DNA of 30,754 bases from a virus. The stretch spans positions 1-30,754 of IMG/VR virus record IMGVR_UViG_3300024346_000341. The stretch is one strand, 5' to 3'. The notes beneath the pieces are model-generated. The model searched no databases and was not told the DNA's origin. It saw nothing but the letters and a program-made list of their open reading frames with translations. Made by a program: the position numbers and the translations under genes. Below, piece by piece: positions 1 through 27,500 of this stretch; within the stretch, counting starts at the first letter, position 1, and each line of letters begins with the position of its first letter.

Positions 1-1060
1 AGACGATAGGGTTTGTAACAGAAAGAGAAGATGTTGAAACTGTGTTACCAGAACCTTGCAAGCTAATCGCACCAGTAATTGTTACGTTACCACCAACGTT
101 CAAGTTACCAGCAAGACCCATACCACCATTAACAACTAACGCACCTGTTGTTGTGCTAGAAGAGTTTGTTGGAATATTGATGAAAACTCTAACGTCTGGC
201 TCAATCTGCATCTGAGTATTACCAGTTGCGAAACCACCAGCACCGAAAATAATCTTTCTAGATGTACCCGCCTCACCTGTAGCAATAACTAAGTCACCAG
301 TGCCTGTACTGCCTGCTGGTGCTTCATAAAGCATGTATGCGTCATCTTTCTTTGTCAATGCAAAAGCTGGATCATTATAGTTAGAACTATTGATACCCAT
401 TGAGATCCAACCAGAGTCTGTGTTACCCACATTATTCATTGCAATGAATTCTGAGTATGCTAGAGTGCCTGTAGATTGATTAACAATCGCTACGTCAATC
501 GCATCGTTAGAAGATGCGGCACCAATGAATGTGTGCTTTTCTTCATTAGAATTAGTCTCTGTCAAGAATCCTGTAACTTGAGAACCCGATTGAACAGCAC
601 TTGATGCTTTAACTGTTGCCACAGAAACGTTTGCAGTCGCACCAGAAATTGTTCCGTTTGATGCAGTAATAGTTAACTTGTCAGTATTGACTGTGACATT
701 TCCAACTAATGAGGATGTGCCAGAATTGACTAGATTACCTGAAGTTGTTGTTCCAGTAACAGTAAGTGCATTTGTTGTTGTATTGAATGTCAATCCAGAA
801 TCATCTTGAATAACACCTGCTGTGCCTGCTAAAACAACTCTTCCTGAAGTTAATGAAGAAATTTTCGCATTAGTTGTGTTTGCATTTGTAGCAGAAATAT
901 CTGTGATAGTCGCAACATTTGCGTCAAATATGTCTGCGGACACAAGTACAGTTCTGTTAGATGCAGTTGTGAGGCTAGTTAACGTATTTGCTACGTCATT
1001 ATGCGCTGTTCTGAATTCGTTGAACGTATTAGACAATGCTACGTTTGTGAAAGTTGTCAT
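1..1060 (-). CDS. Fibre-like virion structural protein, N-terminal part (runs off the window)
   Basis: I read an open frame of 353 codons without a stop from an ATG at 1060 down to the window edge; the C-terminus lies outside. It begins MTTFTNVALSNTFNEFRTAH and is very rich in Thr, Asn, Ser, Val and Gly. A segment reading GVIQDDSGLTFNTTTNALTV is typical of beta-structured tail-fibre and adhesin stalks in marine T4-like phages, and a similar stretch with GLAGNLNVGGNVTITGA recurs near the edge. The ATG lies 2 bases after the stop of the 82-residue gene and has a GA-rich stretch (GAGAGAGAA) upstream. It is the last visible gene of the baseplate transcript, a usual place for fibre genes. Whether it is the receptor-binding fibre itself or a connector cannot be told without the C-terminus. 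Composition and context are seen; the fibre role is inferred. Confidence 0.7.
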   Translation of the reverse strand, partial: MTTFTNVALSNTFNEFRTAHNDVANTLTSLTTASNRTVLVSADIFDANVATITDISATNANTTNAKISSLTSGRVVLAGTAGVIQDDSGLTFNTTTNALTVTGTTTSGNLVNSGTSSLVGNVTVNTDKLTITASNGTISGATANVSVATVKASSAVQSGSQVTGFLTETNSNEEKHTFIGAASSNDAIDVAIVNQSTGTLAYSEFIAMNNVGNTDSGWISMGINSSNYNDPAFALTKKDDAYMLYEAPAGSTGTGDLVIATGEAGTSRKIIFGAGGFATGNTQMQIEPDVRVFINIPTNSSSTTTGALVVNGGMGLAGNLNVGGNVTITGAISLQGSGNTVSTSSLSVTNPIV

Positions 1061-8812: not shown

Positions 8813-8820
8813 TATTTATA
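8813..8820 (-). promoter_or_regulatory. T4-type late promoter for gp8, exact TATAAATA
   Basis: The 116-base gap between the gp7 stop (8880) and the gp8 start (8763) is the longest intergenic gap in this block. On the minus strand it reads GTATAAATAAG, an exact match to the T4 late -10 octamer. Start of transcription would be near 8807, leaving a leader of about 43 bases that includes the AAGGAG ribosome binding site. No clear terminator hairpin for the upstream gp7 transcript is visible in the gap. Confidence 0.75.
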
Positions 8821-8879
8821 CAAAGTTTTTTGAAATTTTGTGAATTATACGCTTGTCTACCATTATTTAGGGGGCTATT

Positions 8880-9050
8880 TTATGCTGAAATCCTGTGTGC
8901 AACAACACCGCTAAATGCATTTGCAGGTAATCTATCTGTTATCATGTATGTGGTATTTGCGACACTCTCTACTTCGAAATACTCATTGTTTGCAACAAAT
9001 ACACTACCAGAACTAAAGTCTGATACAAAGTTTGTTCCAGAACCAATCAC
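8880..9050 (-). repeat. GSGTxF beta module at the gp7 C-terminus
   Basis: Residues 1174-1229: VIGSGTNFVSDFSSGSVFVA, YFEVESVANTTYMIT. Same unit as the three in the DUF4815-type protein; it ends the polypeptide. Confidence 0.65.
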
Positions 9051-12000
9051 TATCGGAACTAAATCTGAAAATAATGATTCATCAATCACATCGATTGCAA
9101 TTGCACTATATGTTGAAATTGGTAATGCCTCAAATCCTGCGTTAGCAGAAGAAACTGTTCCTGCAATTTTTACGTATGTAGTATAATCTGATGCAGTATA
9201 TGTTGATGGATAAGTTGTGCCGAATGTCTCTGCACTTAATGGTCTGTCATATAGAGTTGCTGATATTGCATAGTTGGACAATGCCGAAACTGGCAAGTCA
9301 CCATATGGCAATCCATACACATCTGATTCGCTTTGAATTTCAATTTGAATTTCATCTCTGAATATGTCAGTTGGATTTCTTCTAGCAGATTGGCCAGAAA
9401 CATATGGTGAAGTTGTCGCTTTGATTGTCTTGTCGTATGTTGTAGTTCCAAGATTTGTATCAAATGTAAAATCAGCTAATGTAGATATTGGTGTCGATGC
9501 ATAATCGGATAACAAAGCATCGTCATAAATTATATATCTAAATCCATTTCCTTCAGAGCGAACAACAATTTCTCTATTCACGGATAGATTATTGAGGTCT
9601 GTTTTAATAACAGGAATTTGTTTAACATATTCTTGATATGTTAATGGATAATTTAGATATGTAGTTTCAAATGTAGAATTTGCAAATGAACCTATTATTC
9701 CTTCATATGCATTTTGAGGCAAATCGTCACCAAACACACTACCAGCAACATCTAAAATTGCAACATCTTGTAATTGTATTTTATACAATGCAATTAGATT
9801 CTCTGCATTTGCGAATTTTTGTGGTGTAACAGAAGATGCCGCAATAGACAAATCAAGCACACTTGGTGTTGGAGATATGATTACAACATAATTACCATAT
9901 GTGTTTAGATTTGAAAGTGTTACAAGAACTGGCAACTCACGATCCATTACAGTTGACATAGACACGCCAACGTCATTGAGTGTAAGTCTAACTGGAATCT
10001 CTGGTTTGACAGTTAATGATTCTGTAGTGATGATAGATTCTAATACAGGAATCGTTCCACTAACAGCAAACGTTTCATACTTAAGTCTTGTTGTCGTTGA
10101 TAGCGTAGAAACGTCAATCCTATCATCAATGAATAAATTCATAATTGATTGATACGCAGGATTTTCTCCATACAAATCGCTGAATCTAGCATTCTGTAAT
10201 ACTGAAATTGGAGTAACAGACCAGTCTTCACCATAAACACCACGTGGTGTCATAGGCAAATTGCCGTATGTGTTATATCCGTATCCAGGTAATGTGTCTA
10301 TGTGTCCAATAACAAATTTTGTTGTCGGTAACGTAGCAGAATTTGAAGTTACATCTAATTCAAATGGAGTTTGAATAATGAACGAATGTCTAACATCTCC
10401 CTGATTGATTGTGATTGCAACATCGGTAAGTCCAGTTACTTCATCTCCTTCAGGAACTAAATGTATAACATATTCTTTAACATTAAGTAAGTTTGTGTCG
10501 AGTCTGAGTTTTGGCGCTTCAACCTTAATTTGCATGTTGATGCTAGAGAATTCATACTGGGCACCCACAGTAAGATGCGTGAATATCTGAACAAGCATTC
10601 TCTGAATGTCTGGATTATTAATCAATTCTGCACGAATATCAAGATCGTTAAGAATCTGAATCTCACCAAAGTATATGAGTCCAGCAGGGTGAATGATTGA
10701 TTTTAATGTATCTGAATACGTTTGAAAAGTTAATCCACTCTTGATAACATAAGAGTAATCTTGATAGTAGTATGAGTCTTGAATAATCTTGTAATCAATT
10801 TTACCATCGTCATTTAGAAAAATACCGTTTTTGATTCCTAAACCAGAAATGACAGGTATTAAGTTTGCGTTTCCGTCACCAATAGTAGCCGCAGACGCAT
10901 TAGCCGCACTATAGTCGATACCAAAATTTGTAATTTCAACAGCACGAATCGAACCAATACCTGTGATGTTATTCGATGTGTCAACAGTAACGTTTGCGCT
11001 TTTACCTTGAATATTTGTTGCTACTAGATTTGCACTTGAACCAGTTGTTGTGGTAATTGAAATTGAAGGTAAATTTGCAGAACTATATCCAGTACCAAAA
11101 TTTGTTAATTCAATACGTTTGATTGGACCTTTTACTGACCAATCTTGATTTTTAATAATGTCGTAGTAACTACCATCAGCTTTCATTTGAAAGCCATCTT
11201 CAAATAGAAGGTCGAATGATGTGCTTTCTACAACTGATGCAATTTGACCAGCGGCACCTGTACCAGATCCACCCGTAAATACTAATGTGTTTCCAACGCC
11301 ATAGTTAGAACCAGCATTACTAATTGTGATTAATTTGTCCGACAACAATCCCAAAGATGCAATTGTTGTGTCTTGTAGTGTGATAGAAGGTTTCTTAAAA
11401 TATCCTTCACCTCTATTGAGAACAGATACTTCAGAAATTTCACCAACAGTAAATGTATTTGCACCAGAAGTTACGCTGTATGTATTTGCAAGCGCAGTAA
11501 CTTGGACAAGAAATCCACTACCACCAGTTCCGCTATTGTCGATGGTTGCGTTAGTATTTAATTGATATCCATGTCCGATTGTATTTACTTGTAATGCACT
11601 AATTGGAGATTCTTTAATTGATGAAACTTTAGCTTGGGCCTCTGATCCATTGCCAGTAATTGTAATAACATCGCCATCTTCATATCCAGAACCACCATCA
11701 ACAATTGTAACACTTGATACAATACCATAAATTGTTGTAGATAAATCTTCATCATCAATATCAACAATATCTTCACCCGCAGTAAAAGTACCGCTGACGA
11801 GTTTAAGTGTCATCTCTGAGATTTCTAATGCACCAATAAAGAATTTTTTAATGTCAACTACGTTTGCGAGAACACCAGAAGTTTGTCCACGAATAGTTTT
11901 ATTTAAAAATAAAAATATATCTCTAGTGTCGGCAGATATAGCAATTGTTCTGATGATTTGTGTCTTTTCAAAATTACCATCAGATATACGAAGAATGTCA

Positions 12001-12569
12001 GTTCCTGGATAATAAAAATCAATGTCTTCATTGTATAGAAGTTTGAACAAGAATCTGTAAGACTGTTCGTTACTCTTAGATTCATAAAAATCTTTAAAAT
12101 ATTGTGCAACTAGTTGTTTATTACCATAATATGTTGCAGGTATGCTAGGATATAATTCTTCTCTGAGGTAATCAACATACTTGTCAACGGAAGTTTCAAG
12201 ATTCTTATAGTTTAAAATATTTCCTGATGCACGACCAACGTTGTCTTTAATTATACTGATTGTTGCAGTAGCACCAGAAGTCTGACCAGTAACACTTTCA
12301 GTATATGCAAATACAGTTCTTGATGTTAGTGCAATTACAATAGAATTTGTTTTAACTTCTTTGATCGATGCAATTGCGCCAGAAGTTGCGCCAACAATTG
12401 TTTCACCAACAACAAACGTTTCAGTTTTATTGGTTACTGATAATGTTGTAGATTGCATCCATTCATAGTATGCTTTCATAAACAGCAAAAATCTTTCCGT
12501 ATTAACGGAAGAATTTTCACCAATAAATGATTCTACATTTAATGAAGGTTTGAAAAATGAATCATTCAT
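8880..12569 (-). CDS. gp7: Baseplate wedge initiator gp7-like
   Basis: 1229 residues (T4 gp7 has 1032). It lies between gp6 and gp8 as in T4, starting 3 bases after the gp6 stop. Residues 21-40 and 122-180 are helical with conserved-looking aromatic patterns (FLLFMKAYYEWMQ; YVDYLREELYPSIP; YRFLFKLLYNEDIDFYYPG), and 604-640 (YSYVIKSGL...IIHPAGLIYFGEI) is a hallmark I associate with gp7 of marine T4-like phages. Three TSGA modules (55-75, 93-110, 225-240) and about six Gly-Tyr units (284-576) make up the N-terminal half. The last 56 residues are a GSGTxF module shared with the DUF4815-type protein. In T4, gp7 nucleates wedge assembly with gp10 and binds gp8 and gp6. Direct identity to T4 gp7 is not obvious by eye; position and family resemblance carry the call. 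Confidence 0.82.
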   Translation of the reverse strand: MNDSFFKPSLNVESFIGENSSVNTERFLLFMKAYYEWMQSTTLSVTNKTETFVVGETIVGATSGAIASIKEVKTNSIVIALTSRTVFAYTESVTGQTSGATATISIIKDNVGRASGNILNYKNLETSVDKYVDYLREELYPSIPATYYGNKQLVAQYFKDFYESKSNEQSYRFLFKLLYNEDIDFYYPGTDILRISDGNFEKTQIIRTIAISADTRDIFLFLNKTIRGQTSGVLANVVDIKKFFIGALEISEMTLKLVSGTFTAGEDIVDIDDEDLSTTIYGIVSSVTIVDGGSGYEDGDVITITGNGSEAQAKVSSIKESPISALQVNTIGHGYQLNTNATIDNSGTGGSGFLVQVTALANTYSVTSGANTFTVGEISEVSVLNRGEGYFKKPSITLQDTTIASLGLLSDKLITISNAGSNYGVGNTLVFTGGSGTGAAGQIASVVESTSFDLLFEDGFQMKADGSYYDIIKNQDWSVKGPIKRIELTNFGTGYSSANLPSISITTTTGSSANLVATNIQGKSANVTVDTSNNITGIGSIRAVEITNFGIDYSAANASAATIGDGNANLIPVISGLGIKNGIFLNDDGKIDYKIIQDSYYYQDYSYVIKSGLTFQTYSDTLKSIIHPAGLIYFGEIQILNDLDIRAELINNPDIQRMLVQIFTHLTVGAQYEFSSINMQIKVEAPKLRLDTNLLNVKEYVIHLVPEGDEVTGLTDVAITINQGDVRHSFIIQTPFELDVTSNSATLPTTKFVIGHIDTLPGYGYNTYGNLPMTPRGVYGEDWSVTPISVLQNARFSDLYGENPAYQSIMNLFIDDRIDVSTLSTTTRLKYETFAVSGTIPVLESIITTESLTVKPEIPVRLTLNDVGVSMSTVMDRELPVLVTLSNLNTYGNYVVIISPTPSVLDLSIAASSVTPQKFANAENLIALYKIQLQDVAILDVAGSVFGDDLPQNAYEGIIGSFANSTFETTYLNYPLTYQEYVKQIPVIKTDLNNLSVNREIVVRSEGNGFRYIIYDDALLSDYASTPISTLADFTFDTNLGTTTYDKTIKATTSPYVSGQSARRNPTDIFRDEIQIEIQSESDVYGLPYGDLPVSALSNYAISATLYDRPLSAETFGTTYPSTYTASDYTTYVKIAGTVSSANAGFEALPISTYSAIAIDVIDESLFSDLVPIVIGSGTNFVSDFSSGSVFVANNEYFEVESVANTTYMITDRLPANAFSGVVAHRISA
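10842..11720 (-). repeat. Array of about six Gly-Tyr beta repeats in gp7
   Basis: Residues 284-576. Each unit has the plan V-x-I/V-x3-GxGY-x5-8-I-x-I-x-G/GSGxxAxA. Gly-Tyr cores are at about 292 (GGSGY), 331 (GHGY), 387 (GEGY), 420 (GSNY), 492 (GTGY) and 550 (GIDY). Spacing is irregular (about 40-70 residues) and the DNA copies are diverged, so the expansion is old. Confidence 0.7.
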
Positions 12570-12572
12570 TTT

Positions 12573-14390
12573 TTATCTGTTGACTAAACTAATTGATTTA
12601 TCATCAATCATTGTGACTGATATGTCAGCATCTCTAATTGTAATAATCTGACCTCTTAATGGAAGAATGTCTTTGTCTTGTGGCACCGCAGTTATTTTTA
12701 ATGTTGTGCCACCATCATTGAACGCAGTTGGTGCAAAGTTAGTTAATATAATCTTACCTGTAACGTAATTAATTGATCCGGCATTAACAGATACAGCAAC
12801 GTTTTCAATCCCAAGTACTCTGTAGATACGAATTAAACCATTGTTATCTTCTAAGTAACAATTTGAAAACCCACCCAAAGTAAATGCATTGGATGTGATT
12901 TTATTACCAACACCAAATGATTGAGTTGTTGGTCTGCCATCAGTTGCATCGTCAATTGCATTTGAGAAATTAATCTCATATCGTGTGCCTACACCCAATT
13001 GAACGTCAACTTCTTTTCGCATTTGTGCTGTAGTAACACTACTTAAGATTGATCTCTCAGAAACATCAATCAGTCTAGATAATTTAGAATATCTGAAATA
13101 TTTTGAGAATTGATTAATTTCATCTGTATTGTATGTTTTAATTGTGTCAATTACAAGTTGTTCAATTTCAGCCGAAGTTGATATTGTTGCATCAGACTGA
13201 TACTTTACAGTCACATCAACAATAATATATGTGTATTCGGGATCAACAATTTCTGTAGATATAGTTAAAACTTTTTTAGGTTTAATTATAGAATTAATCA
13301 AATTAAGTTTTTCTGTTGCCGTCAATACATCACCAACGGTAGGTTTAACTGCAATGAATACTTTACCATATGTTGGTGGATCATTGTCTTCACCACCCCA
13401 AACAATGCAAGAATCTACTGTTGCTTGCTGTAACATTAGAGTTTTATAGTCATCGGCTGTTACCACACGATTCTGTGCTTCATATGCTTTTGGTGCATTG
13501 AATTTAATTTGATTGATTGTTTCTCTGTCTGCACCACCAGCGGCTGGATCGGATGCAACAAAGGCAATTGTTGTCACGTTTGCAATAGCATCTGAATATG
13601 TCAATGTCTCGATTTCGTTTGCTGAAGAACCATTAGACACAAGATATTCAAGCACAATAATATTGCCTGCATTTAACGCAACACCAAAGACACCATCACC
13701 AAATTTAATTTCAAATTGGCCATCTTCAGCTTCTTCAATGTAATAAACTCTAGTTGTAGATGTGACTTCAACTAAATTAACAACTTTTGAAAATGTTCTT
13801 GTTGTGCTATCGACTGAAGAATTTAAAACACTAACAGTCAATGTTGATGTGTCTACGTCTTTATTTGGAATTAAAAATCTTTGATCCGAATCATTCAGAT
13901 TTACAGTATATCTTCTGTTAATATATCGTCCCTCTCGAAGAGACATTGTGCTACTATAAACACCATTTGTTGGTGATACAATAACTGAACTTGTGTTTAA
14001 AAAGTTAAATGCTTTTCCATCTACTGTACCCCTAAAAGAAGTATATGCAGGAATAGTTATACTTACTGGAGAACTAGTAAGTGTCAATGTTGCAGTTCCG
14101 CTAATAGATGCAGATGTGATTGAACGTGGTGTGTAGTTTAAAGACTTTGCTAAGTTGACAACTGAATTTCTTTTTTGTGCTGTCGGCAAAAATGCTTCAG
14201 CGGCTACCATGTTTAGGTAGAAAGAATTGTAGTATGTATTATATGCTAACAGGTCAAGCAGAACATTAAGTCCAGAGCCTTCAAAGTTATAGTCTCTGAA
14301 TTGATCTTGCGCTTGCAGATAGGATTTAAAATTGGTTTTTATTCCTTGAAAGTCTAGCGCATCTAGTTTTAAATTATTATCGGATGCCAT
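12573..14390 (-). CDS. gp6: Baseplate wedge protein gp6 (baseplate J-like)
   Basis: 605 residues (T4 gp6 has 660). The N-terminal region (DYNFEGSGLNVLLDLLAYNT at about 33-52, then EAFLPTAQKR near 65-74, and LNYTPRS) is the strongly conserved gp6/baseplate-J signature. The middle (residues about 220-330, EEAEDGQFEIKFGDGVFG and VVTADDYKTL) is also typical of baseplate J proteins. gp6 dimers form the inner ring that holds the wedges together around the hub. The ATG overlaps the gp25 stop (TAATG), and the stop is 3 bases before gp7: the order gp25-gp6-gp7-gp8 is the conserved wedge module. No membrane segment; no oddities beyond slightly shorter length. Confidence 0.94.
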   Translation of the reverse strand: MASDNNLKLDALDFQGIKTNFKSYLQAQDQFRDYNFEGSGLNVLLDLLAYNTYYNSFYLNMVAAEAFLPTAQKRNSVVNLAKSLNYTPRSITSASISGTATLTLTSSPVSITIPAYTSFRGTVDGKAFNFLNTSSVIVSPTNGVYSSTMSLREGRYINRRYTVNLNDSDQRFLIPNKDVDTSTLTVSVLNSSVDSTTRTFSKVVNLVEVTSTTRVYYIEEAEDGQFEIKFGDGVFGVALNAGNIIVLEYLVSNGSSANEIETLTYSDAIANVTTIAFVASDPAAGGADRETINQIKFNAPKAYEAQNRVVTADDYKTLMLQQATVDSCIVWGGEDNDPPTYGKVFIAVKPTVGDVLTATEKLNLINSIIKPKKVLTISTEIVDPEYTYIIVDVTVKYQSDATISTSAEIEQLVIDTIKTYNTDEINQFSKYFRYSKLSRLIDVSERSILSSVTTAQMRKEVDVQLGVGTRYEINFSNAIDDATDGRPTTQSFGVGNKITSNAFTLGGFSNCYLEDNNGLIRIYRVLGIENVAVSVNAGSINYVTGKIILTNFAPTAFNDGGTTLKITAVPQDKDILPLRGQIITIRDADISVTMIDDKSISLVNR

Positions 14391-14773
14391 TATGCTGTCC
14401 TCTTGATTGTTGTTTGTAGACCTGAAATACCAGTCGCATTTTTAATGGTATATTCCAACTTGATATCAAATCCATCATCCGAGTAGTTAACCTTTATGTC
14501 TTTTAAAGTTATACGCTTTTCGTATTTCTCAATGTCAATTTTAAGACTGTTTCTAAGTTCATACAATGTGAATGCGCCATTTCTAGAGAACAGATAATTT
14601 TTAACACTGCTACCATAGTCTGGCATAAATGGTCGTGTGCCTTTTGGTGTATTAATTAAATTAGACAAAGACCTTCTGATCGCAACTTCATTTGTGATGG
14701 GACGAACGTCACCCGTCACAGGATGAGGTGTGAAATCTAAAGGTAAATCTTTATAAAATACAATATCTGCCAT
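14390..14773 (-). CDS. gp25: Baseplate wedge protein gp25 (sheath initiator)
   Basis: 127 residues, the family length (T4 gp25 has 132). IRRSLSNLINTPKGTRPF at 32-49 aligns with T4 IKNSLLGIITTRKGSRPF, and PDYGSSVKNYLF with PEFGCDLSDQLF. gp25/TssE/W proteins nucleate sheath assembly on the gp6 ring; their conserved EPR motif (NYEPRI in T4) reads KYEKRI here (residues 83-88), with Glu and Arg kept but Pro replaced by Lys. It follows the Hc1-like gene and overlaps gp6 by one base. A one-mismatch late promoter lies just upstream, but there is no clear SD sequence before the ATG (GAAAAAAATGG). Confidence 0.95.
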   Translation of the reverse strand: MADIVFYKDLPLDFTPHPVTGDVRPITNEVAIRRSLSNLINTPKGTRPFMPDYGSSVKNYLFSRNGAFTLYELRNSLKIDIEKYEKRITLKDIKVNYSDDGFDIKLEYTIKNATGISGLQTTIKRTA

Positions 14774-14783
14774 TTTTTTCTTT

Positions 14784-14791
14784 TATTTATG
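14784..14791 (-). promoter_or_regulatory. Possible late promoter (CATAAATA) before gp25
   Basis: One mismatch to TATAAATA, same variant as at 21345. Predicted start would leave only about 5 bases before the gp25 ATG, too short for a normal ribosome binding site, so this may be chance or may yield a nearly leaderless mRNA. Confidence 0.28.
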
Positions 14792-14795
14792 TCTG

Positions 14796-14972
14796 TTATT
14801 CGGCAGTCTTTGCGTCTTGGATTTCTTTTCTGCGTTCTTTTGCGGCTTTAGTGAACTCTGCTAATGCTTTTCTTGCTCTAGTGCCAGCCGCTTTATTTCC
14901 TTTTTCGTCAAACTTTGCGCTTTCTGCAAGATATGATTCAAATAAATTTACTAAGTTTTCGTGATTTGTCAT
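14796..14972 (-). CDS. Hc1/histone H1-like small basic protein
   Basis: 58 residues, read by hand from ATG at 14972 to TAA at 14796. The core KGNKAAGTRARKALAEFTKA (residues 24-43), followed by KERRKEIQDAK, closely matches the small Hc1-type histone-like proteins I know from Bacteroidetes and several large phages, with a predicted two-helix layout rich in Lys, Arg and Ala. An SD sequence (AAGGAAA) lies 6-7 bases upstream of the ATG. It sits alone between the gp5-like gene and gp25, in the late tail block. Possible roles are DNA condensation in the head or interference with host nucleoid; neither is shown by the sequence. Acidic N-terminal residues make the protein only moderately basic overall. 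Confidence 0.8.
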   Translation of the reverse strand: MTNHENLVNLFESYLAESAKFDEKGNKAAGTRARKALAEFTKAAKERRKEIQDAKTAE

Positions 14973-14992
14973 TATTATTTCCTTATAAAATG

Positions 14993-15026
14993 TTGACTTT
15001 TGCTTGACAGTATGTTATATTACTGT
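14993..15026 (+). promoter_or_regulatory. Sigma70-like promoter overlapping an inverted repeat, antisense direction
   Basis: In the 72-base gap downstream of the gp5-like gene, the plus strand reads TTGACT, 17 bases, TATATT. The -10 (15016-15021) lies in a perfect 6-base inverted repeat, ACAGTA / TACTGT (15007-15012 and 15021-15026, 8-base spacer). Any transcript would run antisense into the gp5-like gene. Alternatively the repeat is a weak AU-rich hairpin at the end of that gene. Unproven. Confidence 0.25.
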
Positions 15027-15044
15027 GTAGACTGTGATTTTAAG

Positions 15045-16985
15045 TTAGACACTACCTTTTAGATTAGAGGGTACTGCTAGATAACGATTTGGTGCACCTA
15101 ACAGATCATACACATCGGTTACACCGCCAGTTGTTGTGGGAATCTGATTTATTCCAGCGTTCTGAGTGATATAAGCCAATGCATCTGCTTGATTCATTGT
15201 GGGAGTTATTTCTAATGCACATGCCAATACACCACATACTTGAGGTGAAGCCATGCTAGTGCCGCTGAGTTTGGCAACGTAATATCTGGAATCTCTGGCA
15301 TCAGGCACAGGAGTAGGTAAAACTCCTTGAGATGTAATGACGTTTGTAAGCCAAGCACTGGTAATAATTGCTCCAGGAGCAAACACATCCACACGAGGCC
15401 CTCGGTGACTGAAGTTGGCTTTTCTGTCAGCGCCTGGACTATCAGTTGATGATGATATTGCTCCCACACATATAACACCCGAAGTCGCACCCGGTGACTG
15501 GCCACGACTATAATATATAGGGTTGCCTGAATTAGCGCCTGTTGCCGTCACCGTGTTGTTGTAATCAACATCGCTAGGATTTGTTGTCATTCTATAATAA
15601 TAATTTCCTGCCGCGGCGACCATGATAATACCCGCATTGATACAAGATTCTATATCAGCATCCATTGCGTCATTTCTCAATGGAATACGAGCAATGTTGT
15701 CATCAGAGTCAACGGTGATGCCATATGCTGCCAATTGATTAATAGTAAACGGACCTGTGTAAGTTGATCCTTGATATGTCACAGATGTAATATCAGTATA
15801 ATTTATTGTGTATCGTGAAATCCAACTGTTGTTTACAATTGTTGGTGTCATGTCACCAGCCGCACGTTTTTGATTATGCCAATACAAAATATATTTGTAT
15901 AAGTAAGCATATTGAACACCGCCCGTTACATACTGCGGACTTATGTTGTAAATATTAGCATTAGGTGCCCAGCCTTGTGTGTTACCTGCCACAGTGCCTG
16001 CCACATGAACAGCATGTCTACTGTCATCGGAAGAAGAACTACGATTGGTTGTTATGGGAGGACTGTATGTCTGACCATAACTAGAATCACCTGGTATGTT
16101 TAGAGAATACCAATTGAAATATTTTACTCTACTGCCACCCGTGCCGTCTGGATTCACAGCAAATTCGGGATGATTCGGATCTATGACACCATCCACAATA
16201 ACTACATCAACTCCACTGCCGCTGGCTTTGAGTGAAACTATACCAGATAAATCGGTCTTTGTGGCAGTGGCACCGCTTGATCCCCAAGTAGTATCAGGAT
16301 TAGACCCATACCAAGACCTGTACAATCCCCAATTGCGATCCTTAACTCCGCCCACGCCAAATTGTTGACCTGGAGTCAAAGTCAAAGCCTTGCTCCAAAA
16401 CTCTGAATATTGATACGCAGGAACAAGAGGGACTGTATTCAATTGGTTCACAGTAGCGACTATATCCAATTTGTCTTCAAGTGTTAATATTCTTGAAAGT
16501 AATGCATTAAGTGTAGTTGTATTTACACTATCAGACAAGGTTAAATTATTTTTTCCTCTTAACGTTAAGTTTGTGTCTGCTGAAATTCCAATTGATGCAT
16601 TGTTCACATCCCACAAAACATCGTTTTTATTAACAACGTTAGCAAAGTTTCTAGTCATGTTTGGTGCAGTACCGAAATACTCTGCGGCCGCTTGTGGAAT
16701 TGCAGGAAGATATCCTAAAATTGCTGGCTCTTGTGCAGACAACGCATCTAAGAAGAAACCAAAAACCCATTCACCAACTCTAGGCGTTCCGTAGAGGTTT
16801 GGTGTATTCAGAGGATGAATAGATAGTGCAAATGGTAAGTCTTCAGTCAGAACTAAATTAGTTGACTTTGCAGGATGATATCCAAAGCATCGCACTTTGC
16901 ATCTTCCAAGTGTCAAAGGATCGTTGATATCTTCAACAACTCCAATCCACCAAACAAATCCATCTTGCCCAATAAAATTTCTCAT
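15045..16985 (-). CDS. gp5: gp5-like baseplate hub/spike protein fused to a subtilisin-like (S8) protease
   Basis: 646 residues from ATG at 16985; a TTG one codon upstream is possible but less likely. Residues 11-40 (FVWWIGVVEDINDPLTLGR, then FGYHP) align directly with the OB-fold of T4 gp5 (FVGVVEDRMDPLKLGR...GLHP). Residues about 125-190 are a short Asn/Thr/Leu beta stretch and a Leu-rich helix. The lysozyme domain of T4 gp5 is absent. From about 215 to 635 there is a subtilase domain with Asp265 (VVIVDGVID), His324 (RHAVHVAGTVAG; usually HGTHVAG), oxyanion Asn461 (AAAGN) and Ser577 (SGTSMASP): the full set. Neighbours include a gp27-like hub gene upstream, the partner of gp5. I infer a protease-tipped spike, possibly for proteinaceous cell surface layers or for self-processing. 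No signal peptide. Confidence 0.92.
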   Translation of the reverse strand: MRNFIGQDGFVWWIGVVEDINDPLTLGRCKVRCFGYHPAKSTNLVLTEDLPFALSIHPLNTPNLYGTPRVGEWVFGFFLDALSAQEPAILGYLPAIPQAAAEYFGTAPNMTRNFANVVNKNDVLWDVNNASIGISADTNLTLRGKNNLTLSDSVNTTTLNALLSRILTLEDKLDIVATVNQLNTVPLVPAYQYSEFWSKALTLTPGQQFGVGGVKDRNWGLYRSWYGSNPDTTWGSSGATATKTDLSGIVSLKASGSGVDVVIVDGVIDPNHPEFAVNPDGTGGSRVKYFNWYSLNIPGDSSYGQTYSPPITTNRSSSSDDSRHAVHVAGTVAGNTQGWAPNANIYNISPQYVTGGVQYAYLYKYILYWHNQKRAAGDMTPTIVNNSWISRYTINYTDITSVTYQGSTYTGPFTINQLAAYGITVDSDDNIARIPLRNDAMDADIESCINAGIIMVAAAGNYYYRMTTNPSDVDYNNTVTATGANSGNPIYYSRGQSPGATSGVICVGAISSSTDSPGADRKANFSHRGPRVDVFAPGAIITSAWLTNVITSQGVLPTPVPDARDSRYYVAKLSGTSMASPQVCGVLACALEITPTMNQADALAYITQNAGINQIPTTTGGVTDVYDLLGAPNRYLAVPSNLKGSV

Positions 16986-16988
16986 CAA

Positions 16989-17222
16989 TTATCCCACATG
17001 CTTAAAATATTGAATTTGTCTCTCTTGATTCGCAACCCATTCATCTGATGGTTTACCTTCACCTTTGTAGTAGCGCAATGGTCTACCCGTCTTCTTAGAG
17101 ACTAGCGCCCATTTGCCATCTACTTGCTTGAGTGTCTCAATCAATTCTGGACCAAAAACTTCTTCTTCCCACTCTTCTTGTGAAAGAGTAGTGCCTTGTA
17201 TAAATTCTTTAAATTTTTTCAT
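16989..17222 (-). CDS. 77-residue protein with MKKFKEFI N-terminus, unknown function
   Basis: Begins MKKFKEFIQGTTLSQEEWEE and contains KWALVSKKTGRPLRYYKGEG and KPSDEWVANQERQIQYFKH, a short module I have seen in hypothetical proteins of marine T4-like phages, alone or as a C-terminal domain. The ATG overlaps the kinase stop (ATGA) and the stop lies 3 bases before the gp5-like ATG region, so it is co-translated with both. The N-terminal ten residues resemble the T4 capsid-targeting peptide (MKTYQEFIAE) of internal proteins. No function can be assigned. Confidence 0.8.
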   Translation of the reverse strand: MKKFKEFIQGTTLSQEEWEEEVFGPELIETLKQVDGKWALVSKKTGRPLRYYKGEGKPSDEWVANQERQIQYFKHVG

Positions 17223-18169
17223 AACTTATCTAATTCTGATGTGTCTACTGCACCTGGAGGAACATTGTCTTTAATCCAAGTGAGTAATTGTTTTTTCACA
17301 TCAAGTTCCTTTTTAGCAGGCTTTCCTGGTTCCTTAAGTACCAAATACTTGAAGTCTTTAATAACAGGATTGCCTTTTTTATCTTTGTATGCTTTACCTG
17401 TTTGCGGATCAACAATGAAAATTGTATTTTCTGGATTATTTAGAATCACATAAATACCTCCCTGCACTGAGGGCGGCATAGATGTTGTCACTAAGTTATA
17501 TACAGTCTGTGCCGCACCCGCATGAGTCGCAAGCAGAATGTCTTCTGGCACAACTCTCGCTCTTGATTTATTATTCTTGATTGCAATCTGATAGTTAGTC
17601 AGAACCCACGATACGTGAATGTTCTTTGGTTCGTATCCAGCGGCAAACAGTTTCGGCAAAACATCTGTCATGTCAGAGACTTCTTTAAACGTGCTGTCAA
17701 AAATAAGATTTGGCAATTGACCTTTTTCAGCGCCAGCAAGCATCAAGTCTAACGTCTTGTTTTTTACGTCAGTCGCACGAATGAGAACGTGTAAAATATA
17801 TACATGAGTTGGTGTTTTCAAATCCAATTGACCCATCTTTAAATTCTTGTCAGTCAATTCTCTTTGAATAAGTTCTTTATCTTTCTCAGAAATTTTGTCG
17901 CCATACTTGTTTAACAAATCTTGTGTCGTGAATTTGCCAAGCGCATCTAGCTTTTGAAATGCAATCTTCAATTCATCAACGTCACGTATTTTAAACTCAG
18001 AGCCTTGCATGAAGTGTTTGATTGCAAAGCCTTTGCCCGAGCCAGCACCACCAGCAAGGAACACAATCTGTCCATACTTTGCGCCATTGTTATAAAGAAT
18101 TTGTTTCTCTACAAGTTGAGTCGCTTTGTAGTCTTTTAAATCTACATATTCTGAAAATTTTAGTTTCAT
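17219..18169 (-). CDS. P-loop kinase of the zeta-toxin/polynucleotide-kinase type
   Basis: 316 residues from ATG at 18169, which overlaps the upstream stop as ATGA; a TTG at 18190 gives seven more residues but is a weaker choice. Walker A at residues 40-47 is GGAGSGKG in VFLAGGAGSGKGF: Gly stands where Ser/Thr is usual, as in adenylate kinases. A conserved Asp follows in NLIFDSTFKEVSD (about 158-170), and NNKSRARVVPEDIL (about 198-211) looks like the Arg-rich lid of zeta-like kinases. N-terminus MKLKFSEYV recalls that of the next gene. Zeta-type kinases phosphorylate UDP-sugars or nucleotides; the substrate here is unknown. It is embedded between two hub genes and probably made late, which is odd for an enzyme. 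No antitoxin-like partner gene is seen. Confidence 0.75.
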   Translation of the reverse strand: MKLKFSEYVDLKDYKATQLVEKQILYNNGAKYGQIVFLAGGAGSGKGFAIKHFMQGSEFKIRDVDELKIAFQKLDALGKFTTQDLLNKYGDKISEKDKELIQRELTDKNLKMGQLDLKTPTHVYILHVLIRATDVKNKTLDLMLAGAEKGQLPNLIFDSTFKEVSDMTDVLPKLFAAGYEPKNIHVSWVLTNYQIAIKNNKSRARVVPEDILLATHAGAAQTVYNLVTTSMPPSVQGGIYVILNNPENTIFIVDPQTGKAYKDKKGNPVIKDFKYLVLKEPGKPAKKELDVKKQLLTWIKDNVPPGAVDTSELDKL

Positions 18170-19668
18170 GGTACCAGACCTTTTCTCCAATAGTTGTCAA
18201 CTATTGTTGTTGACTCTGTGTTATCTGCATATCTTCTGTTTGGTAAAACTGATTTAATTTGATCTGATCCAAGCCCAGTATTAAAATCATAAGGCACAGA
18301 CGCTCTGCTTAGTTCCAATGATTTTGTGTATGCACCCAATGAAATTTTATGGGTTACTGACACAACAAAATATTTACCCGAATAAATTTTATCATTCGGT
18401 GGATTTGGATTTAATGGATCGGCTAACTTCTCAAAAGAACTGGGAATTGTAAAATTTACAATGTGTCCAACGCCAATATTATTTTTACCGCCCTCAATTT
18501 CAACACCAATTTGAAATAGATTTTTACTTAAATGTCCGTAGATATTATTTCCAAGCCATGCATCTCTGTTTACTGAATCATTTAAAGATGATGTGATTAA
18601 TTTTCTTCCAGGAGTTTCTCCAGCAACATCGTCATATCTAGAAAAAATATTAAAATTATCTATAGTTTTGAATGAGTAAAAGTCTGTGCTTTCGTTTTCA
18701 CCATTTGCATACGACAATTTTTTCATTGCGTGTGTTCTTGATATTGGATCAATTGACGTAATCGTTGTATTGTAAAGTCCCAACAGCATTGCGTTCAAAT
18801 GATTAAAGTTCTCTCTTCTTTCATACTTGAGAGTTCTTATTGTTGAATCTTCCTGGTTTGCTTGTAATTTTTCAGAAAATTTAATGTTATACACACCAAA
18901 TTGTGCTGAATCTGCAATTAATTTGCTTAGGCTACCAAAATAATATGAAGAAGTAAAGGCTTCATCCGTTTCTGTGTTTGTCGCAAATACTGGATTTAAT
19001 CTTTCAAAGAATACATAAAAGTCACCTTTGCCACATGCTCTATGTGTCATGGCTTCAATCGCTTTATGTGGCATAAGTCCTGTAGATATAAATGGTTTCT
19101 CTAAAGTAATTCTAGGGTCTTCTAAAACTAAATCGTTTTGACCACCCATCTCAGAAAACATAGACGATACTGCATCGCCAATCGACATATTCTTATAGCT
19201 TTTAAATAAGCATTTTTTAGTTGAATTCACAAAAGTTCTTGACACAAACTGCAATTGATATACGCTACTCAATGTAGTTTGATCTACTACGCTTTCACTA
19301 ATTTTATGTAATATTAAATCTTTTCTCCAAATGATTACATCATTACTTTTTGGTTTTGCAATTTTAACACCAATAGTTTCACCACCACGTATTGCAAACT
19401 TTTCTAAACCACCGCCAGTATCTTCAATAGTAATGACACCCTCAATTGACGCTGAAAACATATCTTCAACAATTTCAATGTCTCTGAATGCACCCTTTAA
19501 ATCTACTTTTTCGCCATAAGCAGTAATTAAGAAAAGTTCTTTAACATCAACATCAGACCCAACTCCAGGACGAGTAACTGGATCTTGAGTTATCTCTATG
19601 CTTGATTTTTCCGATAAGTTAGGAGAAAATCTAGTGAACGCTGGAAAATTTGCGTTTGTGGTTACCAT
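18166..19668 (-). CDS. gp27: Baseplate hub protein, gp27-like
   Basis: 500 residues (T4 gp27 has 391). The N-terminal third (VKELFLITAYGEKVDLKGAF, then IEIVEDMFSASIEGVITIED and IRGGETIGVKI) fits the tandem beta-barrel start of hub proteins that encircle the spike, and the C-terminal part ends with YSGKYFVVSVTHKISLGAYT, a common ending in hub proteins (binding of the tube fold). In T4 a gp27 trimer makes the cup on the gp5 spike; here the gp5-like gene is three genes downstream in the same operon. The start overlaps the gp53 stop (TAATG). Similarity to T4 gp27 is structural in kind and not obvious residue by residue; it could also be described as a gpD-like hub. Extra length compared with T4 is unexplained. 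Confidence 0.72.
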   Translation of the reverse strand: MVTTNANFPAFTRFSPNLSEKSSIEITQDPVTRPGVGSDVDVKELFLITAYGEKVDLKGAFRDIEIVEDMFSASIEGVITIEDTGGGLEKFAIRGGETIGVKIAKPKSNDVIIWRKDLILHKISESVVDQTTLSSVYQLQFVSRTFVNSTKKCLFKSYKNMSIGDAVSSMFSEMGGQNDLVLEDPRITLEKPFISTGLMPHKAIEAMTHRACGKGDFYVFFERLNPVFATNTETDEAFTSSYYFGSLSKLIADSAQFGVYNIKFSEKLQANQEDSTIRTLKYERRENFNHLNAMLLGLYNTTITSIDPISRTHAMKKLSYANGENESTDFYSFKTIDNFNIFSRYDDVAGETPGRKLITSSLNDSVNRDAWLGNNIYGHLSKNLFQIGVEIEGGKNNIGVGHIVNFTIPSSFEKLADPLNPNPPNDKIYSGKYFVVSVTHKISLGAYTKSLELSRASVPYDFNTGLGSDQIKSVLPNRRYADNTESTTIVDNYWRKGLVP

Positions 19669-20198
19669 TATAATACTGGCCTTTTGGCAATTGTATTTAA
19701 GTCTGACGTTATCGCAGTAATCAAACTTCTCTTAACAACTTTTATTTTTGCTTTGTTAGAATTTACTCGCAACTCATATTCATATTGTGTTTCTGAACGT
19801 CTTGCAGTTGAAGCGAGATTGTTATATGTTGTTTGGTCAATAATATCAAGACTTGAATTGTAGTAATATTTTACAGTAGACATGGCTGATGATAGACTTC
19901 CATATTTTTCAATTATGAAAGTCTCTAAATCAAAAGAGTTTCTTGGCCAGTCATCGTATACGCTATACATATCGTTTGCAATCAATAGAATCCAATCATA
20001 GCTTGGATCAGCATAAAGTTTATTTGAAACAATGTCAGGTCGATCACCGTTTTTTACAATGTACGGAGTATACAATATACCCCTATAGCTTTTCAGATAG
20101 TCTTTTATTTTTATAGCCGATGTTATATCAATCGCTCTTAACGAATCATATTCATCGACTTTATAATTTATTTTTGGGAAGTATGTGTATATTGACAT
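19668..20198 (-). CDS. gp53: Baseplate wedge protein gp53
   Basis: 176 residues (T4 gp53 has 196). Starts with YTYFPKINY (T4 FTFFDPIEY), and the middle keeps YIVKNGDRPDIVSNKLYADP, then SYDWILLIANDMYSVYDDWP (T4 YYIKGSPRPEELANAIYGNP, LYWVLLMCNDNYDPYYGW), a clear match. The C-terminus IKVVKRSLITAITSDLNTI parallels T4 IKIIAKSDINSFMNDL. gp53 clamps adjacent wedges and completes the hexagonal baseplate; its central part is LysM-like in T4. The gene lies 2 bases after gp48 and overlaps the hub gene by one base. Confidence 0.93.
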   Translation of the reverse strand: MSIYTYFPKINYKVDEYDSLRAIDITSAIKIKDYLKSYRGILYTPYIVKNGDRPDIVSNKLYADPSYDWILLIANDMYSVYDDWPRNSFDLETFIIEKYGSLSSAMSTVKYYYNSSLDIIDQTTYNNLASTARRSETQYEYELRVNSNKAKIKVVKRSLITAITSDLNTIAKRPVL

Positions 20199-20200
20199 AA

Positions 20201-21316
20201 TTAGAAAATTGTTCTGCCTGCTGTTCCGTGTTCTGCTGATGCATATCCAGCTGTAATCAATACGCTCTCTTTTAGTGCAATTGTCATATTGACTTCAGAT
20301 GGAAAATAATCACCTGCTTCAGCCGACTCTGGACTTGAAAGAAATACCATTTTGTTTTGTGCGCCATAATCTAAACCAACATTCTCAATCATACAATATT
20401 CAGACTGAAATAACATAGTTATGGTGTCAAGATTATCATCAATATTTGGTCCAACACCTGAGGGAGTTCCTGAACCTTTTTTGTATAATATAAATTCTAA
20501 CTGAACCATGTCTGGATATCCAAATGTTAAAGGTGCATTGGATCTTTCTGTGATATCAGTTCCAACATCATTATTAAATGCATCTAATCCTAGTTCAGTT
20601 AATTTTATTCTTTTTTGTTCATCTGGCAATGCATTAATTGCGTCAAGTTGGTTTTGATCTGTAACAGAGTTTATCAATGCATTTTCATCATCTGGCGCTA
20701 ACTTATCTTCAGTATTTCCTCTAGGAGACGATGCCACACGAAATGTATGAATAATGTCACGCATTATTTTTGCTTCTTGATAGCTTGTTGGTTTCATATT
20801 AAATGGTAATTGAAATGATCTGAATCTAGGTCCCTGATAGATCACTTGTTGAAAACTGTTAAATAATTTTCTAGTCAAAAATTCTAATTGAGGTTTTCCC
20901 GATTGACCAGCACTACCAATATATCCAACGCCAGCACCAAGAGCATTTGCTAAGCCTTTTTGTATTGCTTCTAAAGCACTACCTTTAACTTGACCTAGTA
21001 AGTCTGTAAATCCCGCCAACCCACCTTCAACGCCAATTGTTTTGCCTGGTTCAACACCTCCAAATATACCCGATGTTTCTTGATATCCATTACTTAATTG
21101 TGTATTAAATGTACCGCCAAGTCGTATATAAATACTTGGTGCAGTTGATTCTTTGCCTGTTGCATCAAAGAATTTAAATCTGGCCATAGGAATCACATAT
21201 TCTGAGTGTGCATAGTCACTACCAAATATCAGTTCGGTGTCTTTAGCAGGATACTCAAATGTATCACGTATTATTGTAAAGGGCGTTCGATCTTCTGGTG
21301 GTAAAGCAGTTGCCAT
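20201..21316 (-). CDS. gp48: Baseplate tail tube cap, gp48-like
   Basis: 371 residues, close to T4 gp48 (364). The C-terminus (DYFPSEVNMTIALKESVLIT, then GTAGRTIF) parallels the T4 gp48 end (LPSTFTLEITMREIITLNRA, YTGTF), and the middle has QLPFNMKPTSYQEAKIMRDI followed by IHTFR, matching the pattern WDLTPRSTEDLMAIINIYQYF of the tube-like fold. gp48 with gp54 caps the hub and starts tube polymerisation. First gene of the minus-strand baseplate block; SD GGAAAG lies 6-7 bases before the ATG, and a one-mismatch late promoter overlaps the start codon of divergent gp4. The central Gly/Ala-rich stretch (about 85-155) is low complexity. gp54-like is an alternative label. Confidence 0.8.
   Translation of the reverse strand: MATALPPEDRTPFTIIRDTFEYPAKDTELIFGSDYAHSEYVIPMARFKFFDATGKESTAPSIYIRLGGTFNTQLSNGYQETSGIFGGVEPGKTIGVEGGLAGFTDLLGQVKGSALEAIQKGLANALGAGVGYIGSAGQSGKPQLEFLTRKLFNSFQQVIYQGPRFRSFQLPFNMKPTSYQEAKIMRDIIHTFRVASSPRGNTEDKLAPDDENALINSVTDQNQLDAINALPDEQKRIKLTELGLDAFNNDVGTDITERSNAPLTFGYPDMVQLEFILYKKGSGTPSGVGPNIDDNLDTITMLFQSEYCMIENVGLDYGAQNKMVFLSSPESAEAGDYFPSEVNMTIALKESVLITAGYASAEHGTAGRTIF
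21127..21134 (+). promoter_or_regulatory. T4-type late promoter (TATAAATA) for the plus-strand block, inside gp48
   Basis: The plus strand carries TATAAATACT, matching the T4 late octamer exactly and also the CT that often follows it in T4. Transcription would start near 21140 and read about 210 bases antisense to the gp48 5' end before gp4. No other good promoter precedes gp4. Confidence 0.5.
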
Positions 21317-24525: not shown

Positions 24526-27500
24526 ATGGCAACAATAGGTAATTACAGCGCCGCACTAGGAGGCGCACTCAAGCAAACTGCTGGAGGTATTGTCAAAGGT
24601 TTTGGATACGGTCTCAAAGGCGCAATGCTTTCTGAGATGCCAGGCCTTGTTGCCGGCTATGGTGCATTCTCTAGTCTAAGAAAAGACGCAAATAGCATGA
24701 GTCAGGCAAAACAAGCGCCGGCTCAAACACCAACACGCTCTCAAACAAAACCTTCAGCTACTGGAAATCCATTTGCACAAATGGTTCAGCAGTTAGCACA
24801 AATTAATTCTAATACTGCAATGGCGGCAAGTGTCGCTAAAGCATCTGCACAAGCCGAACAGTATAAGATGATGTTTGAAGAAGAAAAGGCTAGAGAACAG
24901 GCACAACAAAATCAAGCACTCATTGATGCAATTAAGAATTCAGGATTTGGTGGCGGAGGAAATAAAAGTGGCGGCTCGGGCGGTGGTGGAAATGGAAATG
25001 ATAAAAATGGTATTTTTGATTTTTTAAAAAACAACGCTAAAGAGTTGGGGGGAGGTGCGCTTGCTTTTCTATTAAGAAGACAAATAGCTGGTATGGTGAG
25101 TAGTGTCATGCTAAGAGCATTAGCATCACCACTTACAGGTGCAATTGTTGGCGGTGGTATAGCGGCTGCATCGATGGGCGCAACTATTGTTACTATGCTT
25201 AGAGGATTGATGTTTACTGCATTGCGTGGTTTGCTATTCACTCCAGCTGGATTAGTTGCCGCTGGCATTGGTGGCTTAATGTATTACAGCAGAAAGACTG
25301 AAAACAAACAAACAAAAGATGCTGTAAAAAATAATCTTCCTGTTGCGCCTATGCCAAATAAAACTTTTGAGCAAGAAGCAAAAGAATTGAGAGAGCAAGC
25401 TAAGAATGAAAAAGATCCACTTAAAAGAACAGAACTTGAAACTAAAGCTAAAGCCGCACAAAACAATGTAGCGCAAGAAAAAATTAAAAATTCTCCTTTG
25501 ACTTTAGAAAATAGACAGAAAGCGTGGAAAGAAAAGTACGACAAATCTCATAATGCAACCGGTGCGCCGAAAGTAGTTACTACTGGAAACTATCTTGATA
25601 ATTTAGCTAGAGCCGAATCGGCAGGTGATCCTAATGCTAAAAATCCAATGCCAGGTCAGAGTGCATCTGGATTATTCCAATTCACACAAGCGACTTGGAC
25701 AGGAACAGTTGAAAAGATGGCTAGCAAAGGCTTAATAAAAAAAGAAGATTATGCGGACTTAAAATACAGATTTGATCCAGCCAAATCAAGAAAAGTTGCA
25801 GAATTTTTTACAGAAGAAAATCGCCTTGGTTTAGAAAAAGCATTAAATCGTCCTATCACTCAAACAGACCTCTATATGGCTCACTTTTTGGGTCTTGGTG
25901 GAAATGAGAATGGCGCAATTAGATTTTTAAAAGCATATGCAAAAGACCCAGATGGGTTAGCAATTAATTATGCTGGTGCGGATCAAGTGGCCGCCAATCC
26001 AAGTATTTTTTATACAAAAGACGCACCTCCTAGACCACGCACATTAAAAGAAGTGTATGCGTTGATGAGTAAAAAAATTGGTGGTGGAAATAAACCAAGT
26101 GTTGGTCCACAAACAAGTGAGAATGACAAGAAACCATCAACTGGTGATGTTCCTGTAGTAGGCAATCGTTCATCAAGAAAAAATTCTAAATTTAATGTTC
26201 CTGGATATGCCGCACAAGTAAATAAAAAATTAACAGACAATGCAGTTACAAAATATTATAAAGCAATGTCTGAGGGAAAAACAGAAGCAGAAGCAAAAAA
26301 ACTTGCACTTGAAATAGCATCAACTAATACTGTTGCAAAACAAGCAGTAGAAGTAGCATCAGAAAAATTCAAAGCTGAAGTTGCTGGTGGAGGAGGCGAT
26401 TCTGAGAATGGGGTTAATGGTGATGGATATGATTTTAGAAAACTTTTTGGTTCAAGTAAATTTGGTGATAATCCAAATGCTATAAAACTAGCCGCTGGTT
26501 CTGGATTCAATCTTGGTGCACCATTGATTGAAATGGGTGATGGTGCCGTAGCTGAAGCCGCGGCTGCAAGCCCAACTTCAAATGCGGTTGTAAACGCAAG
26601 AAATAAAGCTATAGCAGACAAGTTTTTGGCTGAGCGTAAAGCAGAAGAAAGTAAAAAAGAAGTTGTTAAATATTTACGTCAAACATCCGAAAATACTTTT
26701 AATACTGCTAAAGAAGTTAAGAGTAATCGAATTACAATGTCTAAGGGTAAATTTACTAGTCCCGAAGATATATTATCTAAAGCAAATAAACAATTCACAG
26801 ATAGTCTACAGAAACAGTTAACTAAAACTATTTCTGGCACTTTGATGAGTGCATTGTATCCAGGTGGATATAAAAATGTAAGCCAGAAAACTGCATCAGG
26901 ACAATTGTATAGAGGTGAACAACTCAACAAGATGTTGGGTGTTACGCCAGCACTTGTCAAACTTGGAACATCTGTATTTGGTAAGCAATACGGTCCTGCA
27001 TTCGGACAAATCTTTGGAAAAGCCGCAACATCTTATATGGAAGTTGGTGCTAGGTCTGTAGCACAAGGTATCTTTGGTTCAATGGGTATGAATTCTGACC
27101 AAGCAAATATTCTTGGTGGACAGATTTTAGGTAATCTTGCTAAAGGAACACAACAAGGTAAGTTAACTGCGCTTGAACAGATTATTTTTGGTGTGAGTGG
27201 AGGACAAGTTGCACTTGGTCCAGAAACCATATTTGCAAAATATGGTTTTGCATCACCACAAGAAGGCATTAGCTACATGGCTAATGTATTGGGTGCGGCC
27301 GCCATGGGACCAATTGATAGTGCGTTAGGAACTACACCACTCAATATGCGTAACATGGATCCAAGAATGAGACAGATGGGTGCATTTGGTGGCTATGGTG
27401 GTGAGTATGGTGGTATGCCTGGAGGAATGCCTTCAATAGGAACACAAAATGCAACGCTTAGAAATGATCCTATTTTACAATTAAACAAAGACGGCATGGT

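Follow-up and report, generated by a model that had tools for sequence, protein, structure and literature searches.

Phage spikes are known to bear cell-wall enzymes or metal-tipped needles. T4 gp5, the tail-associated lysozyme of the baseplate hub, docks on the hub with its N-terminus. In the 'evolved' VgrG proteins of the T6SS, an enzyme is placed on the C-terminus of a gp5-like spike, and such effectors act in the target cell. Secreted subtilases, among them Meiothermus keratinase, aqualysin I and proteinase K, are exported with a prodomain, which the classical extracellular enzymes need to fold. Stand-alone proteases of cyanophages (S-H38 QPB07966, S-CREM1 UYA57622, Sf-FR1 XYM58789; PHROG 9158) are encoded, as annotated, next to baseplate genes. 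Most jumbo myophages are reported to have PAAR tips to which no effector is fused (PMC7824862).

The window, by which we mean the whole stretch of 30,754 nucleotides that was analysed, contains a gene in which a gp5-type spike and a subtilase are joined in one reading frame (Table 1). The product shares with T4 gp5 a homologous OB-type N-terminus and a kindred gene neighbourhood with gp53, gp25 and gp6 but differs from it in a spike without lysozyme, a short needle and a C-terminal subtilase. As in an evolved VgrG, which would be its functional likeness, the enzyme is C-terminal on a gp5-like spike, whereas the window genes with named matches are phage genes, with no T6SS gene cluster among them. 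The active site and the fold, which for the window protein is predicted, are those of keratinase, aqualysin I and proteinase K; the secreted subtilases differ in not being virion proteins. The protease module is 39-41% identical to the cyanophage proteases, which differ in their length of about 550-570 aa, an I9-like prodomain of their own, a short C-tail and the lack of a spike part.

Table 1 Positions in the window of the fused gene, its parts and neighbouring features
Feature	Position	Strand	Basis
Fused gp5-type spike and subtilase gene	15045..16985	(-)	646 aa, stop codon inside span
gp5 N-terminal OB-type region, residues 1-105	16671..16985	(-)	PHROG 694/430/1922; T4 gp5 structures
Short needle and coiled coil, residues 106-188	16422..16670	(-)	model; motif RILTLE at 165-170
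Subtilase module, residues 190-646, without I9-like prodomain	15048..16418	(-)	profile, alignment, model
Asp265 codon	16191..16193	(-)	alignment
His324 codon	16014..16016	(-)	alignment
Asn461 (oxyanion) codon	15603..15605	(-)	alignment
Ser577 (nucleophile) codon	15255..15257	(-)	alignment
Spacer before gp25	14774..15044	(-)	conserved with short-gp5 phages; marks 3' edge of insertion
gp25 baseplate wedge	14390..14773	(-)	PF04965, 7.9e-14
gp6 baseplate wedge	12573..14390	(-)	PHROG 219, 1.1e-169
Hub protein, gp27 position	18166..19668	(-)	PHROG 350 tail protein
Lytic-transglycosylase-like domain in 1628-aa tape-measure-like protein	25558..26130	(+)	structure and PHROG match

The fused gene

Translation may start with ATG at 16985 (646 aa) or with TTG one codon earlier (15045-16988). 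The frame 15045-16985 on the minus strand contains no internal stop, and stops are abundant on the plus strand across the same span. The first-pass annotation had given these coordinates exactly and had left the strand unstated. In an IMG/VR scan with the whole protein, which yielded 78 loci, the fusion was recovered in two further contigs, L001 (98% identical) and L002 (93%), which keep the gene neighbours of the window throughout the available contig. The zeta-like kinase, orf77, gp25 and gp6 flank the fused gene in L001; in L002, the contig of which ends just 3' of the gene, the zeta-like kinase, the hub, gp53 and gp48 lie upstream. Comparison of the window with L002 gave dN/dS values of 0.024/0.222 (about 0.11) for the spike, 0.036/0.361 (about 0.10) for the linker and 0.040/0.228 (about 0.18) for the protease. 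These low ratios in all three parts indicate a single frame, as had been claimed, under purifying selection throughout. Between the window and L001, no difference was found over 365 protease-core codons and 29 bases differ over 74 linker codons, which looks like intragenic recombination.

A contig chimera or a frame error would be compatible with the nature of the window, a 30.7-kb IMG/VR virus record, and with a GC content that is higher in the protease part (0.434) than in the spike part (0.376). Against such an artefact, to which we give next to no credence, stand L001 and L002, which share the fusion together with the flanking genes and differ from the window at many synonymous positions; the same fusion in two differing contigs is not an assembly error, and these two fusions rule out a chimera or frame error. 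A frame error separating the two parts, an objection raised in the first-pass annotation, was thus not found, in keeping with the dN/dS values of 0.10-0.18.

The earlier view that the novelty lies in the attachment of the protease to the spike gained support. In the GenBank phage collection, none of the 1694 matching records spans 80% of the fused protein. In BFVD, S8 proteins of phages and, as separate entries, gp5 OB-fold proteins score best, and a fused protein is absent from the best 50. No description of a subtilase on a phage spike was found among the listed titles and abstract beginnings of open-licence PMC papers.

The protease module and its active site

PF00082 matches residues 257-615 (TTG numbering) with E=8.2e-24 and 84.8 bits, against a cut-off of 21.8. 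The Asp-His-Ser triad and the oxyanion Asn follow in order as D265, H324, N461 and S577 (ATG numbering), exactly at the positions noted earlier. Alignment A2 (79 rows) includes 55 of 68 near-unique subtilase stretches as well as the full-length proteins of the window and of the two other fusions; each of the four residues is kept in 56 of its 56 rows that bear a subtilase. All four are present in 152 of 153 aligned family rows (156 minus L018, L093 and L118, some contigs being present twice), and this conservation reaches down to about 40% identity. The sole exception is the prodomain-less L175 (L175:1257-3158), which has Glu in the Asp265 column, so that its active site is shifted or altered. 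The surroundings of the histidine vary freely among the 56 rows (HGTH 18, HGAH 9, HGMH 8, HAVH 4, others 17), and the HAVH of the window, taken at first for an unusual motif, is therefore an ordinary variant. NCBIfam yielded S8 matches only, far under the cut-off.

The AlphaFold2 model of the whole protein has a mean pLDDT of 81.7, with values mostly above 90 in the subtilase part. Foldseek found the keratinase 5wsl at 2.0e-17, and in a VIA-align comparison with the same structure 274 of 282 residues were superimposed (model 190..641 on chain 1..279, Z 35.8, rmsd 2.2). A PDB profile search that was empty at 1e-20 was rerun at 1e-6. Of the 50 listed VIA rows, 16, among them 15 of the 17 best, have the aligned mature start at residues 186-191, and the remaining 34 have it at 214-216, from which it follows that the mature enzyme would begin between about 186 and 216, just past the coil. 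By profile, active-site residues and predicted fold, the window protease is a member of the S8 family, and the completeness of the subtilase claimed at the outset is borne out. Tail sheath proteins have a domain called 'subtilisin-like' (PF04984), as mentioned elsewhere (PMC12796325). This domain was rejected as an explanation, the window protein matching PF00082 with a full active site.

The spike part and the site of insertion

Residues 4-134 match the PHROG gp5 families 694, 430 and 1922 (E=4e-24, 5.7e-24 and 2.1e-23) and the spike part matches PDB structures of T4 gp5 with E of about 3e-7, which confirms the earlier recognition of an OB-fold start like that of T4 gp5. Of the two profiles proposed for the search, PF00082 was clearly found; Pfam Gp5_OB was marginal (E=0.094, under the cut-off), and the PHROG families identified the gp5 part. 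In the low-confidence monomer model, in which the spike part has pLDDT values of 45-79 in blocks of ten, the needle region consists of a short strand-rich stretch followed by a coiled coil, the helix of which covers residues 159-183. We take the RILTLE sequence in this helix to be a trimer-type R-h-x-x-h-E motif. The motif occurs in 55 of 62 complete gp5 proteins of the lineage and is missing from all seven extended ones.

Of the 78 IMG/VR loci, 66 have this gp5, in 53 cases in a short form, in seven extended, in two fused and in four cut by the contig end. The short gp5 proteins (53 of the 62 complete genes, with L062, L063 and L065 of 223, 223 and 192 aa assigned to this class by hand) comprise about 190-270 aa. 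Compared with these spikes (e.g. L014, L026 and L031), the window has a spike part that is 65-87% identical and the same coiled-coil motif and downstream spacer, but they stop after about 190-256 aa and lack a protease. No Pfam lysozyme profile matched at E≤10 in the window protein and eight further gp5 proteins or parts, a set that included the 350-aa gp5 of Pelagibacter phage HTVC008M. The assumption that the protease had replaced the lysozyme has to be abandoned, as no lysozyme was seen in this spike lineage; the protease was rather added to a lysozyme-less spike.

The insertion has clean boundaries. Similarity to short-gp5 phages extends from upstream through the coiled coil, and the subtilase starts about where the spikes of the lysozyme-less relatives end. 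On the other side, the spacer toward gp25 aligns with short-gp5 phages nearly from the stop codon of the fused gene, so that the graft ends, on its 3' side, no more than about ten bases from the ancestral stop. A 58-aa ORF (14796-14972, minus strand) between spike and gp25 is kept in the spacers of the aligned relatives.

Other forms of the spike were encountered among the relatives. L053:709-3018 encodes the same gp5 spike, extended C-terminally by 541 aa. The extension is beta-propeller-like (PF08450, 3.7e-06) and, as judged by eye, also bears tail-fibre-like repeats; it is another cargo at the same spike position. L071-L074 have extended gp5 needles with THIHD or THVHG near the C-terminus, presumably akin to the HxH tips with which other phage spikes bind metal. 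The gp5 of L003 and its kin seems to be split (L003:3763-5689) into an OB part of 364 aa and a 276-aa ORF that matches the middle part of the gp5 families (PHROG 430, 1.9e-38).

Relatives of the protease and loss of the prodomain

Two deep scans of viral contigs revealed at least 530 and at least 572 relatives of the protease, each among 599 pattern matches; the best 80 relatives were retained from each. Among 84,980 bacterial and archaeal species, represented by one genome each, three loci were found, all in one Rhodobacteraceae metagenome bin. All three adjoin gp25, gp6, gp7, gp8 and gp10-like genes and are therefore probably of phage origin. On sequence grounds, the protease module is that of a large phage family, in which the window protein is one grafted member. 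This family, the main context of the locus, was missed in the first-pass annotation, the interpretation of which is otherwise supported in part.

The usual form is a stand-alone gene of about 550 aa with an N-terminal domain of about 82 aa that ends in SRNTHY...DPRVLAVEL and is predicted to have the order strand-helix-strand-strand-helix-strand. Of the 50 listed VIA rows, only that of fervidolysin extends to residue 1 (351 residues, model 1..519, Z 30.2); its structure is taken by us to contain its prodomain. Pfam I9 did not match at E≤1 in four prodomain-bearing proteins scanned. With a profile of the relatives' prodomain, built from 30 of the matching proteins, such a stretch was recognized in 94 of 114 distinct family proteins (132 of 156 when repeats are included) and was absent from 20 (24 of 156). 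The 20 include L018 and L161, which are cut by the contig end, and L093, a shorter piece of L176. The window protein did not match the profile, and its coiled coil occupies the place where the prodomain would be. The protease genes L165:6582-9173 and L167:6615-9185 are larger, about 860 aa, and that of L165 has a long stretch between the Asp and His regions.

The neighbours of the family members were sought by similarity to window proteins, and most stand-alone loci were without a match. The wedge order gp25-gp6-gp7-protease-gp8 was found in five loci (L104, L162, L165-L167). In 13 further loci the stand-alone protease directly precedes a gp8-like gene, and in three (L080, L139, L161) the gp8-like gene lies further downstream. 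Upstream of the protease, a gp8-like match occurs in L101, L123, L124, L129 and L155 and a gp10-like match in L119 and L137. Not all stand-alone relatives belong to the wedge operon. Some are found within tail-fibre clusters or next to other genes, and the annotations of S-H9-1 and P-SSM2 place the gene among tail-fibre and structural genes.

In a tree of 97 dereplicated modules (156 minus nine with a domain span below 300 or above 560 residues and minus 50 near-duplicates), all 13 untruncated rows without a prodomain fall into a single clade with an SH-aLRT of 100, requiring one state change. L161 is among the 97 rows and was left out of the prodomain-less count. The tree is a quick one with SH-aLRT support only, a 10-row group inside the clade reaches 71, and L121 is one of the long branches there. 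The prodomain thus appears to have been lost once, after which the module came to be placed on many carriers. At least seven kinds of carrier, sorted among close modules and told apart by eye, occur in the clade: the gp5 spike (window, L001, L002); an unrelated N-terminus of about 290 aa (L003-L008); a repeat protein encoded between a gp7-like and a gp8-like gene (L009, L011 and the cut L010); a large N-terminus (L012, L013, L089-L091, L173); L121 and L175, each of its own kind; and a protein of 5852 aa that contains the subtilase twice (L176). The 746-aa protease of L003-L008 has a module 82-84% identical to that of the window and is encoded between gp5 and gp25; it differs in its carrier and in the separate gp5 gene, and the other baseplate proteins of these loci are only about 23-45% identical to those of the window. 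Neither Pfam nor PHROG gave a match at E<0.05 for the 290-aa N-terminus of L003 and the N-termini of L012 and L013. In the 11 printed prodomain-less rows, the carrier ends, by eye, at the position of the prodomain end, shortly before NWGL, and no member of the grafted clade has the module outside a longer protein. In L176:2006-19564, the GTSMA and H-x-x-H-V patterns (second position G, S or A) occur only in the first copy.

Baseplate genes and tape measure

The fused gene lies in a baseplate cluster, with the gp27-position hub, gp53 and gp48 upstream and gp25 and gp6 downstream. The hub protein had no PDB sequence match at E≤1, and among cultured phages the closest gp6 was that encoded by Pelagibacter phage HTVC008M (39.6%). 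Window genes with named matches encode phage tail, baseplate, DNA-end-protector, holin-like and P-loop proteins. Among them is a zeta-toxin-like P-loop protein (17219-18190, minus strand; PF06414 4.8e-06, PHROG 5268 2e-50) between the hub gene and gp5, which in some relatives is better conserved than its neighbours (in L014, 98% as against 46% for the hub). Comparison of window positions 7483-21316 with L014 reveals a mosaic baseplate operon, in which gp6 (89%) and gp5 (87%) are closely similar and gp25 (49%), the hub (46%) and gp53 (58%) are not.

The tape-measure-like protein contains a stretch that matches the structure of endolysin gp144 (E=2.4e-15), presumably the protein of phage phiKZ, and the PHROG 4067 transglycosylase (E=2.5e-22). 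Judged by these matches, the domain is a candidate cell-wall cutter of the window phage. It does not track the protease: among 16 relatives with some tape measure, two have it (L058, L066), ten skip the stretch and four are too short.

Possible function of the spike-borne protease

The reading that we favour, with a little more belief than doubt, is that of a protease at the spike tip that acts on proteins of the host envelope. In this reading, the fused gene encodes the spike at the centre of a T4-like tail and, if the spike is a trimer, three protease domains would be placed at the host-facing end. The protease indeed follows the short needle on its C-terminal side, as stated in the first-pass annotation, and we infer the host-facing placement by analogy with T4 gp5. 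During tail binding and contraction, the proteases would cut proteins of the outer layers of the host, such as S-layer, pili, outer-membrane or periplasmic proteins, and so ease penetration, and the transglycosylase-like domain of the tape measure would open the peptidoglycan. Digestion of the host surface, already suggested earlier, is our best guess for its activity and substrate. The module itself comes from the phage family described above, whose usual member is encoded on its own, has an I9-like prodomain and is often located in the wedge operon. A spike-tip role is supported by the single selected frame in three differing contigs, the conserved active site and the predicted fold, by the adjacent baseplate genes (gp48, gp53, the hub position, gp25 and gp6) and the trimer-type motif, by the other cargo at the same position in relatives (L053, and the HxH tips of L071-L074), and by the stand-alone relatives near gp7-like and gp8-like genes and the transglycosylase-like domain in the tape measure. 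Against it speak the poor monomer model of the spike part, the position of some stand-alone relatives outside the wedge operon, the failure of the transglycosylase-like domain to track the protease, and the absence from the window protein of the prodomain that classical subtilases need. The protease is also dispensable in the lineage, as it is carried by only two of the 62 complete fetched gp5 genes, besides the window.

Other roles have to be weighed against a protease at the spike tip. The junction might be an old prodomain cleavage site at which the protease, once folded on the spike, cuts itself at about residues 185-215, to be carried or released as a free enzyme into the periplasm or the cell; it would then be an effector and not a fixed tip. 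Mature starts that align just past the coiled coil and the I9-like prodomain at that place in the stand-alone relatives would fit such a release, as would the cleavage that T4 gp5 itself undergoes in tail assembly (PMC10038345). We nevertheless consider release unlikely, given that no prodomain remains to direct the cleavage and that the constant occurrence of the grafted module in longer proteins suggests that the tether matters. Alternatively, the enzyme could trim tail or baseplate proteins during assembly and have no role at the host surface. The stand-alone gene inside the wedge operon in part of the family points in this direction, and in jumbo phages well-conserved peptidases are said to be commonly interpreted as maturation enzymes (PMC7824862). 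A maturation protease would hardly be so patchy in one lineage that otherwise shares its baseplate genes, and on the differing carriers its position relative to the substrates would differ, which makes this role improbable.

The subtilase fold might also serve adhesion, with catalysis unused. Tail tips often bear binding domains, the propeller-like region of L053 is found on the same spike, and the prodomain-less L175 has Glu in the column of Asp265. The retention of the four residues in 152 of 153 rows, over such sequence divergence, and the need of the prodomain forms for catalysis in order to mature render a mere binding module very improbable.

The missing prodomain could be explained as follows, although we regard the proposal as rather doubtful. 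Its single loss would have produced a graftable domain for which the carrier, here the coiled coil, serves as a folding aid, an inhibitor or both, and the protease would stay silent until contraction drives the spike into the host, which would make it a protease needle triggered by contact. In this family, pro-enzyme and graft form natural pairs for the study of how subtilases fold and are silenced without a prodomain, and the coiled coil in the place of the prodomain makes this question testable. The family also provides an example, taken from nature, of enzyme swapping on a contractile spike. A spike-borne protease would mean that the barrier breached at the point of puncture consists of protein and not of peptidoglycan alone.
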